Shown here: piece after piece, positions 3 to 34,114 of the stretch
How positions within the stretch are numbered: position 1 is the stretch's first letter
How the letters are laid out: each line of letters begins with the position of its first letter
NCBI GenBank assembly: GCA_020027535.1
Contig: JAHRAK010000106.1
Span: 1-34,114, forward strand
Length of the DNA stretch: 34,114 nt
Direction of reading: 5' to 3'
From: Nitrospirales bacterium
Lineage (GTDB): Bacteria > Nitrospirota > Nitrospiria > Nitrospirales > UBA8639
Position numbers and translations under genes: made by a program
The notes under the pieces: generated by a model
What the model was told of the DNA's origin: nothing
What the model saw: only the letters and a program-made list of their open reading frames with translations
Databases searched by the model: none

Positions 3-122
3 GCAGGCACTATGGCAGGTCTTCCCGAGAGAATCAAGTATGCTGAATACCTATATAATGGCATGCTTACATACATCAGGACGCCACCCAACCACAAGAT
101 AGGCGTCAAGTTAAAGGGATAA
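3..122 (+). CDS. C-terminal fragment of an unknown protein (partial, runs off left edge); ...AGTMAGLPERIKYAEYLYNGMLTYIRTPPNHKIGVKLKG*
   Basis: Open frame from the window edge to TAA at 120-122; the same peptide is encoded in inverted orientation at the right end. Confidence 0.4.
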   Translation, partial: AGTMAGLPERIKYAEYLYNGMLTYIRTPPNHKIGVKLKG

Positions 123-127
123 ATCCC
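15..127 (+). repeat. Left copy of a 113-bp exact inverted repeat bounding the window
   Basis: gcaggtcttcccgag...aaagggataaatccc is the exact reverse complement of 34002-34114. Confidence 0.95.
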
Positions 128-31763: not shown

Positions 31764-32145
31764 ACTGCATGTTTGAAAAACACAATGTTATTTCAAAAAG
31801 ATAAATTTCAATGCTTGTTGTACGAATTCTTCCAATTTGACTTTTTCGACCTAGCTTTTGGCATCCACCTCATTTTGAACCACAAAGGCGGCGCATCGAC
31901 CGAACAGACATTGACTAATTATGCAGACGGCATCCCGGCTAACGGCATCTCATTTATCCGTGCAACCCTGAACTTGCAATCGACGTTCAACATGCGACTG
32001 TTTGCAGGGACACAAGCATGAATGCAAGAATCAAATTTGCGATTGAGCCCCATTCTGTTACTGTAAGTTTAGATCAGCCTATAAAGTGACACGGCCTGGA
32101 TGGAAAAGCAATGTCTGACAAACTGCTTGCCAGGAGGAATCAGCA

Positions 32146-32841
32146 ATGAGAATTGAACCCGAAATCGCCCGGGTCTCTCTTGTTATGTGTGGCCATTTCA
32201 ATCCTTTAATTTTTACACATTCATGGTTTGGTTGGAATGGGCTTCTTTCTAAAGAAATTGTCGATAACGCAAATATGCAAATTGCCCACCCTCAGATCAC
32301 GAAATTCAATGCAGACTGGCTTAACCTACAGGTTGAACCAGAACGTTTCATGATTAACACGACTCAAGCTCCTTATATTCGTTTGCAGGATCTGGCCGTC
32401 CGTATTTTTCGGAATCACCTTCCCCATACACCCCTTAACGCCTTAGGAATCAACAGAGAAGTACATTTTACTGTTAAGAAATTTGAAGAGCGAGACAGGC
32501 TAGGCAGATCGCTGGCACCGGTCGAGCCGTGGGGAGAATGGGGCAAGAAACTTGAACCAGATGGAGAACATGGTGGCATGACCTCCCTCACCATGAGACA
32601 AATAAACCCAGACGGCAGGCCGCCTGATGGACAAATAAATGTGACCGTAGAACCGTCCAATAGAGTCGGAGAGGGACATCTTGGTATATACGTTCGGATC
32701 AATGACCACTATAGTATTGAGGACGCAGAAAGTCATACCGCAACCAGCGAAATAGTTAAGCTACTAGAGAGAAATTTTGATGAATCTCTTCAACCTGCGG
32801 ACAAAATCATCGATCACCTTATGTCATTAACGGAGAAATAG
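32146..32841 (+). CDS. Uncharacterised protein, first gene of the MBL cassette (TIGR04255-like in overall organisation; weak)
   Basis: RBS AGGAGG before ATG; MRIEPEIARVSLVMCGHFNPLIFTHSWFGWNGLL...; 2 nt upstream of the next gene. Confidence 0.7.
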   Translation: MRIEPEIARVSLVMCGHFNPLIFTHSWFGWNGLLSKEIVDNANMQIAHPQITKFNADWLNLQVEPERFMINTTQAPYIRLQDLAVRIFRNHLPHTPLNALGINREVHFTVKKFEERDRLGRSLAPVEPWGEWGKKLEPDGEHGGMTSLTMRQINPDGRPPDGQINVTVEPSNRVGEGHLGIYVRINDHYSIEDAESHTATSEIVKLLERNFDESLQPADKIIDHLMSLTEK

Positions 32842-32843
32842 AA

Positions 32844-33449
32844 ATGTTGGCCACTGCACGCGCTCTTACAGATGATGATCTTCCGGATTTATCTTACCCC
32901 AGTGAAACCTCACTTGTCCCCGCTCTCACTAGCCATAGGTTACGTAAAATACATGCGGAACGTGTTGCGATTTCACTGCGCCAAACCCGAGACGCCTCAA
33001 TTCGCGATCCTCAAAGCACAGAAACCGGAATTGCCGATTTTACAACGCTGACTAGTAGCCTTCCTGATGTTGAGCCGATCATAACATTACCAAGCCTGCC
33101 ACAAACGTCACCGGCGCAGGCAACATTTCATGCCCTCCAGGAATGGGAAGGGTATGTCCTTGAGAAAGGAAAGTGTGAATTCACGGCACGATTATTGGAC
33201 TTGACTGCAGAGTCCTTACAAGAGGAAGAAGAAGTCGCAATTCCTTTGGCTGAAATTTCAGAAGATGATCTTAATCGGCTGCGTCCCGGCAGCGTTTTCC
33301 GTTGGGTCATCGGATACGAGCGCTCCGTGAGTAAAACCAAACGGCGCATTTCCCAGATTGTCTTCCACGACCTTCCTGCTATGACCAAGCAGGACATATC
33401 CGAGGGAGAAAAGTGGGCAAAACAAATCGCTCAGTCGATAGTGGACTGA
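32844..33449 (+). CDS. Uncharacterised protein, second gene of the MBL cassette; C-terminal beta-rich domain
   Basis: EWEGYVLEKGKCEFTARLLDLTAESLQEEEEVAIPLAEISEDDLNRLRPGSVFRWVIGYERSVSKTKRRISQIVFHDLPAM. Confidence 0.7.
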   Translation: MLATARALTDDDLPDLSYPSETSLVPALTSHRLRKIHAERVAISLRQTRDASIRDPQSTETGIADFTTLTSSLPDVEPIITLPSLPQTSPAQATFHALQEWEGYVLEKGKCEFTARLLDLTAESLQEEEEVAIPLAEISEDDLNRLRPGSVFRWVIGYERSVSKTKRRISQIVFHDLPAMTKQDISEGEKWAKQIAQSIVD

Positions 33450-34001
33450 CAGCCGTCAAAGCACCTCCCGAGCACGATCAAATAGAAGTGTGTCTCTTCG
33501 GTCCAGGTTACGGAGAGTGCATACTCCTTCATATCGCGTAAGGGAAATTGGGTAATCGTAGACTCCTGTCTCAATCAGGAGTCTCATCCAGCTGCATCAG
33601 CTTATCTGCACGGCTTGGGCTTAGATCCGGCTGGAGTTGTTCGCCTCGTGGTTGCGACCCATTGGCATGACGACCACATCAGAAGCATGGGAAAACTGAT
33701 CGAGATCTGCAACAACGCAACTTTCTGCTGTGCGAGTGCCCTGCGTGAGAACGAATTCCTTACGGCCGTGGGTGCCATGGAGTCCGGCCCTGTGGCTGCA
33801 GCTGGCTCTGGAATGCGAGAATTCCATAAAGTGCTGTCGTTACTTGCAGAGAGATCTTCTAAGCCCAAATTTGCTTTAGCTAACCGTCTGATATTTGATC
33901 AAGACGGTTGCGAAATTTGGTCCCTTTCTCCTTCTGATGAAGAATTCACAGCCTTCTTGCAACGAATAGGGCGCCTTTTGCCAAAGAAACACGAAACAAA
34001 A

Positions 34002-34114
34002 GGGATTTATCCCTTTAACTTGACGCCTATCTTGTGGTTGGGTGGCGTCCTGATGTATGTAAGCATGCCATTATATAGGTATTCAGCATACTTGATTCTC
34101 TCGGGAAGACCTGC
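34002..34114 (-). repeat. Right copy of the 113-bp exact inverted repeat
   Basis: Reverse complement of 15-127; identity stops at 34002 (flanks ...cgaaacaaaa versus gtccattctg). Confidence 0.95.
34007..34114 (-). CDS. Second, inverted copy of the unknown C-terminal fragment (partial, runs off right edge)
   Basis: Encodes the same ...AGLPERIKYAEYLYNGMLTYIRTPPNHKIGVKLKG* on the minus strand. Confidence 0.35.
   Translation of the reverse strand, partial: AGLPERIKYAEYLYNGMLTYIRTPPNHKIGVKLKG

Follow-up and report, generated by a model that had tools for sequence, protein, structure and literature searches.

At the right-hand end of the window, by which is meant the whole 34,114-nt stretch of Nitrospirales DNA analysed here, lie three genes read in the same direction and referred to below as the cassette (Table 1). 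Their packing had been described as tight in the original prediction, with one AGGAGG ahead of gene 1, two nucleotides between genes 1 and 2, and a gene 3 that starts at the gene 2 stop or overlaps it, and the coordinates confirm this, with overlap in the case of gene 3. The likely start of gene 3 is a GTG at 33413, within the end of gene 2, and it corresponds to an ATG in the intact Nitrospira relative at locus L005.

Table 1. Coordinates of features in the window and of the small-protein operons headed by gene-1 relatives.
Feature	Position	Strand	Remarks
Second copy of the repeat end, at the contig's other end	15..127	-	Identical 113 nt
Mod remnant, 82-aa ORF upstream of the cassette	31773..32021	+	First and last Mod parts joined
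Gene 1 ribosome-binding site AGGAGG	32132..32137	+	Read directly in the sequence
Gene 1	32146..32841	+	231 aa, open frame intact
Gene 2	32844..33449	+	201 aa, intact, 2-nt gap after gene 1
Gene 3, first piece, frame 2	33413..33541	+	Ends ...GPGYGECILLHIA*; premature stop 33539-33541; aligned to intact L005
Gene 3, second piece, frame 0	33537..34001	+	GNWVIVDSC...HWHDDH...LLPKKHETK; PF00753
End of repeated mobile element that cuts into gene 3; the contig stops within it	34002..34114	.	113-nt identity to other copies
Gene-1 relative and two small proteins	L101 4187-6011; L106 3178-5119; L109 4030-5845		

As assembled, gene 3 is broken twice. After the premature stop it resumes one base out of frame (KGNWVIVDSC...HWHDDH, read on a single contig, in which the shift may be an assembly error), and its identity to the intact L005 gene, 88% over the last 51 nt, stops at 34001, beyond which the L005 gene runs on. 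What is absent amounts to ~150 residues and includes the second half of the metal-binding site (D, HHGS). The proposal that gene 3 is a metallo-beta-lactamase (MBL) gene with a repeat boundary next door thus survives in part: the MBL motif and the repeat are both present, but the gene is not one open frame, and the repeat, starting at 34002, lies inside the gene instead of beside it. In the window genome, as assembled, the candidate effector gene is inactivated by the combination of a frameshift and a repeat element and, being twice broken, can give no intact MBL protein.

The 113 nt of the repeat are identical at G000:C100:24679-24791, which is the end of contig C100, and its last 48 nt are also present at C35:7175-7222, the end of contig C35. 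Read by eye, one frame of the repeat resembles the terminal part of a transposase. The two ends of the window contig are copies of this one repeat in opposite orientation, and other contigs of the genome end in the repeat as well. A separate case of effector loss, independent of that in the window, is found in a Nitrospinae relative (L009 8369-12863), where the MBL gene is split by ~3.4 kb of transposase-bearing DNA with a transposase resembling the IS1595 kind. That the window and L009 have both lost the effector would fit an effector that is costly, and would also fit plain decay.

Upstream of the cassette is an 82-aa ORF, residues 12-38 of which match residues 8-34 of a 1025-aa Mod protein (67% identity, 1e-9) and residues 44-82 of which match the last 39 residues of that same protein (49% identity, 2e-8). 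The longer Mod, which is MTase_III at 591 bits, is encoded directly downstream of the cassette at another locus, L006. The short ORF is apparently a type III-like Mod methyltransferase after an in-frame internal deletion, and because this collapsed remnant is just upstream, the window cassette was probably once located within a restriction-modification island.

Recurrence, spread and genomic neighbours

Searching 84,980 species genomes for gene 2 in a single scan yielded 39 loci. Gene 1 is upstream of gene 2 in 32 of these (two of the seven loci lacking it begin at a contig edge) and an MBL gene is downstream in 36. The three genes are all on one strand and as a rule follow one another within 0-15 nt or overlap at start and stop, and the next most common real neighbour family is present in at most 8 of the 39 loci when antisense shadows of the cassette genes are excluded. 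Since the same three genes in the same order are found in dozens of genomes, the cassette is not due to chance. The divergence of the three proteins is also matched. For the 20 loci in which all three genes are intact, the distance matrices correlate at 0.795 for genes 1 and 2, 0.792 for gene 1 and the MBL gene, and 0.861 for gene 2 and the MBL gene, values that none of 2000 permutations reach. Recurrence of the gene order in unrelated genomes had been named beforehand as support for a system, and separate occurrence of the genes, or a housekeeping assignment for genes 1 or 2, as what would count against one; the genes do co-occur, and genes 1 and 2 match no housekeeping family.

Eleven named phyla are represented in the gene-1 tree, where the window and its Nitrospira relative fall together with Latescibacterota and a SAR202 bin. 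Relatives of the cassette come mostly from metagenome bins, many of them apparently sponge-derived, and because the names derive from such bins, single phylum assignments may be misbinned. A sponge-type gammaproteobacterial chromosome, OY282378.1, has two copies of the cassette (L013 and L029), one of them degenerate.

Association of the cassette with defence genes is given descriptively, locus by locus. At L010 the cassette is surrounded by genes whose products match profiles for DUF499 (HmaC-like), DUF1156 methyltransferase (HmaB-like) and PLD/SNF2 helicase proteins; homologues of these HMA-like neighbours are also present at L015, L017, L021 and L042, and in several loci the cassette has the DUF499 group on one side and the DUF1156 gene on the other. 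Profile matches additionally identify type III Mod and Res as neighbours at L006 and PtuA at L013. Type IIG enzymes are near the cassette at L037, L039 and L099, type I restriction genes at L048, and an AbiLi/AriA-like ATPase at L015. Two MBL systems adjoin at L018 (9671-14202, minus strand), where a true 6A-MBL pair, with its E1-E2-JAB protein at 351 bits and its MBL at 296 bits, both above the NCBIfam cut-offs, is directly downstream of a window-type cassette. The surroundings at L008, L014, L020, L031 and L032 are housekeeping genes.

From the repeated use of the same site between the DUF499 group and the DUF1156 gene, the type I, IIG and III enzymes that adjoin the cassette, and the collapsed Mod in the window, it could be argued that the cassette is a helper of adjoining restriction-modification or HMA systems and not an independent system. 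We consider such dependence improbable: the neighbouring systems are mutually unrelated, and many loci (L008, L014, L031 and L032 being examples) have no recognised defence gene adjoining the cassette.

Mobile elements are a further setting. On the viral contig L047 the cassette is between terminase- and portal-like genes and on the phage contig L045 it adjoins a large tail-like gene, these genes having been identified by eye from sequence, while on a third viral contig, L044, it is flanked by methyltransferase genes. It is also carried by an Adhaeribacter plasmid and, beside tyrosine recombinases, by a conjugative Pantoea plasmid. The PHROG families phrog_36401 and phrog_28593, for which no function is assigned, match the phage-type gene 1 and MBL; a tblastn search of phage GenBank records with one phage-type gene 1 and MBL gave no match. 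Proximity to defence genes and carriage by mobile elements had both been named in the original prediction as observations that would support a system, and the restriction-modification, HMA-like, 6A-MBL and PtuA neighbours, the phage contigs and the two plasmids provide them.

The cassette proteins and known relatives of the proposed effector

No family could be named for genes 1 and 2 at the outset, and this has not changed, as neither has a Pfam, significant NCBIfam or PADLOC family match. Members of the gene 1 family have the motif GxFNPxIFTPxW...TPxxAxGxN...NDHY, and the AF2 model of gene 1 has a mean pLDDT of 88. Comparison of the model with the PDB gave no fold match over its length; in a viral structure library TBP-like proteins were retrieved at low TM, together with an unnamed viral protein, A0A515MGR4, at TM 0.56/0.62, from which no function is drawn. 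Several specific candidates were discarded, namely TIGR04255 as the gene 1 family (hhalign probability 4%, E 0.01, and no NCBIfam match), an AdoMetDC fold (PDB matches at TM 0.33 with rmsd >14 Å) and an internal duplication (not significant, E 0.23). The gene 2 product has a variable, poorly conserved N-terminus and a conserved beta-rich C-terminal domain (~residues 94-200, LQEWEG...FRWVIGYER), recognition of which from the window alone was correct, as was that of HWHDDH in gene 3. The domain is modelled at pLDDT mostly 80-95 and its best PDB matches, which are weak and none below E 0.01, are OB-folds; an OB-like beta-barrel is proposed.

Intact gene 3, with a length of ~360 aa, is by its sequence a ComEC-like MBL. 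The L005 protein matches PF00753 (Lactamase_B) at 8.6e-7 and 29.5 bits (cut-off 22.7); the HWHDDH motif of the window gene is of the HxHxDH type; its relatives conserve the second half of the metal site (D, HHGS), as aligned to ComEC structures; and the gene 3 profile matches ComEC at both halves of the site, THxxxDHI and KVPHHGS. Features shared with the MBL nuclease domain of ComEC/Rec2 (PDB 9ic4, 30bt) are GxGxxI...VD, THxxxDHIxG, SxDxE and KVPHHGS. Unlike ComEC/Rec2, gene 3 belongs to an operon of three genes and its product, cytosolic in appearance, stands on its own; its first motif is HWHDDH, and the motif halves are ~40 residues further apart than in ComEC (106 versus 66 positions). 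The best PADLOC matches are the defence MBLs RTasMBL (41 bits) and LmuA (38 bits). These likenesses suggest a metal-dependent nuclease, and specifically a DNase. An antibiotic beta-lactamase of class B was rejected as a candidate, with bla_class_B_core at 23.7 bits against a cut-off of 100 and the MIM family at 22.9 against 640.

The substrates of MBL folds are many, and with so many relatives known from bins of apparent sponge origin, it is conceivable that gene 3 is a hydrolase which, with two accessory proteins, acts on a small-molecule or sponge-symbiosis substrate and has no part in defence. This is very unlikely in our estimation, as the top-scoring MBLs are ComEC and defence MBLs with the antibiotic beta-lactamase models far below cut-off, and as the cassette is carried by phages and plasmids and has relatives in which HEPN or PIN takes the place of the MBL (below). 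The suggestion of a role in nucleotide or peptide processing, which had also been made, found no support.

ComEC-like MBL proteins are effectors in Hachiman, AVAST, Lamassu and DRT, and one of them, HamM of Hachiman, has been shown to be a latent DNase that is unlocked by proteolysis (PMC12799240). Pro-nuclease modules of the trypsin-MBL or caspase-MBL type are found in Hachiman (HamM), AVAST, Lamassu, DRT and canu (PMC12799240). An exchangeable ComEC-like MBL effector, extra MBL sequence and a spread among unrelated systems are common to these modules and the cassette; the cassette differs in having two unrelated small partner proteins and in having its MBL gene last, not first. Pfam scans gave no match, to a trypsin-like or caspase protease or otherwise, for genes 1 and 2 or for the divergent gene-1 and gene-2 members scanned, one sub-threshold match among the latter apart, and membership of the trypsin-MBL modules was rejected as no protease partner gene was found in the cassette. 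Where such modules have MBL insertions that gate the active site and are cut by the protease, what is observed in the cassette MBL is the ~40 additional residues between its motif halves. With 6A-MBL (NF058523/NF058524) an MBL-fold effector is shared, but the cassette is without the E1-E2-JAB partner. Membership was rejected here also: the MBL of an intact relative scores 26.5 bits against the NF058524 cut-off of 220 and there is no cap2_3 E1-E2-JAB partner, the L018 locus at 296 and 351 bits serving as positive control for the models. Genes of HMA and of the DUF499-DUF1156-PLD helicase group are frequent neighbours, but genes 1-3 match none of their components, and HMA (HmaA-HmaB-HmaC) was set aside as an identity for the cassette, HmaB/HmaC-like proteins being only neighbours, as at L010.

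Exchange behind gene 1 and proposed function

The plan of gene 1, gene 2 and MBL is retained at L070, L071 and L099 by highly diverged members. Behind other gene-1 relatives the third gene encodes instead an HEPN protein (L072, L100 and L115, all above the Pfam cut-off, L111 looking similar on visual inspection) or, at L069, a PIN protein (3.6e-15). The gene-1 group of the HEPN/PIN type is homologous to that of the MBL type (hhalign 99.2%, E 7e-20), and the original MBL-type gene-1 profile alone also retrieved L069 and L072, while for the middle genes of the HEPN-type operons there is no detectable relationship to gene 2. These HEPN and PIN toxin modules consequently have the same upstream gene-1 family as the cassette and differ from it in effector and middle gene. 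With gene-1 relatives heading HEPN and PIN operons, the slot behind gene 1 is, at the level of sequence, exchangeable between MBL, HEPN and PIN, and the term 'modular' that had been applied to the system proves apt. Whether the HEPN proteins are active is uncertain because they carry R-x-x-A-D-Y instead of a clear RxxxxH motif. In a further operon type the gene-1 relative is followed by two small proteins of no known family (L101, L106, L109 and, more doubtfully, L105); that at L101 is placed between hsdS- and hsdR-like genes. Other gene-1 relatives are apparently alone, with no adjacent effector operon (L102, L103, L107, L110 and L112-L114).

One upstream family combined with exchangeable nuclease-type modules, on phages, plasmids and in defence islands, is the pattern of conflict systems. 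It is because of this pattern, and of the ComEC-like MBL effectors and HamM (PMC12799240), that gene 3 is proposed to be a latent DNase controlled by genes 1 and 2. With moderate confidence we favour a conflict cassette of three genes that moves horizontally, is directed most likely against phages or plasmids, and has an MBL nuclease as its effector. Genes 1 and 2 would keep the nuclease latent and release it upon infection. Gene 1, as the constant part of a wider family that is otherwise combined with pairs of genes of which the last encodes HEPN or PIN, might be the sensor or regulator that carries the trigger, and gene 2 could be an adaptor or inhibitor whose OB-like domain joins gene 1 to the nuclease. 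That the cassette has no protease or other obvious activator of an MBL pro-nuclease counts against this reading, as do the housekeeping surroundings of some loci, the preponderance of metagenome bins among the relatives, the weak fold matches of genes 1 and 2, the motif of the HEPN proteins and the gene-1 relatives that seem to be alone. The original interpretation as a modular conflict system is supported by these results; that its function is defence or conflict is what genomic context and domain content suggest.

A rather unlikely explanation, though one that several of the same observations would suit, is an addiction module of toxin-antitoxin type in which the MBL, HEPN or PIN protein is the toxin and gene 2 and/or gene 1 the antitoxin, the main function being maintenance of plasmids, prophages and islands and not phage defence. 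The tightness of the operon and its carriage on plasmids and prophages are as expected for such a module, PIN and HEPN are classical toxin folds, and genes 1 and 2 are still open in the window and L009 where the effector is disrupted. That there are three genes instead of two, with a widely shared component upstream, is less easily accommodated, and the repeated nesting in HMA-like and restriction-modification loci is a better fit to defence.

The kind of effector is already known. Neither of the two partner families, nor a swapping of MBL, HEPN and PIN behind gene 1, came up in the libraries and papers searched. PADLOC, in its 2023 version, is without the gene 1 and gene 2 families, though a recent description could be missed there, and the literature other than preprints on similar three-gene systems and on 6A-MBL yielded nothing on this cassette, with the same chance that a recent description was missed. 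Gene 1 may represent an undescribed sensor family that heads three-gene operons in which an MBL DNase, an HEPN or PIN RNase, and one or more modules of another, unknown kind are interchangeable. Phages, plasmids and defence islands would then be the vehicles of a new class of immune or conflict system; this broader proposal is put forward tentatively, as somewhat short of probable. For the conflict cassette, a ComEC-like MBL with two non-protease partners suggests a mode of gating other than proteolysis. The cassette has a wide distribution among uncultured bacteria and is missing from the defence catalogue that was searched. The gene 1 family is in addition a handle for finding HEPN- and PIN-containing operons of unknown trigger, and a profile of diverse gene-1 proteins identifies members in 19 of the 396 genomes of the window's phylum.
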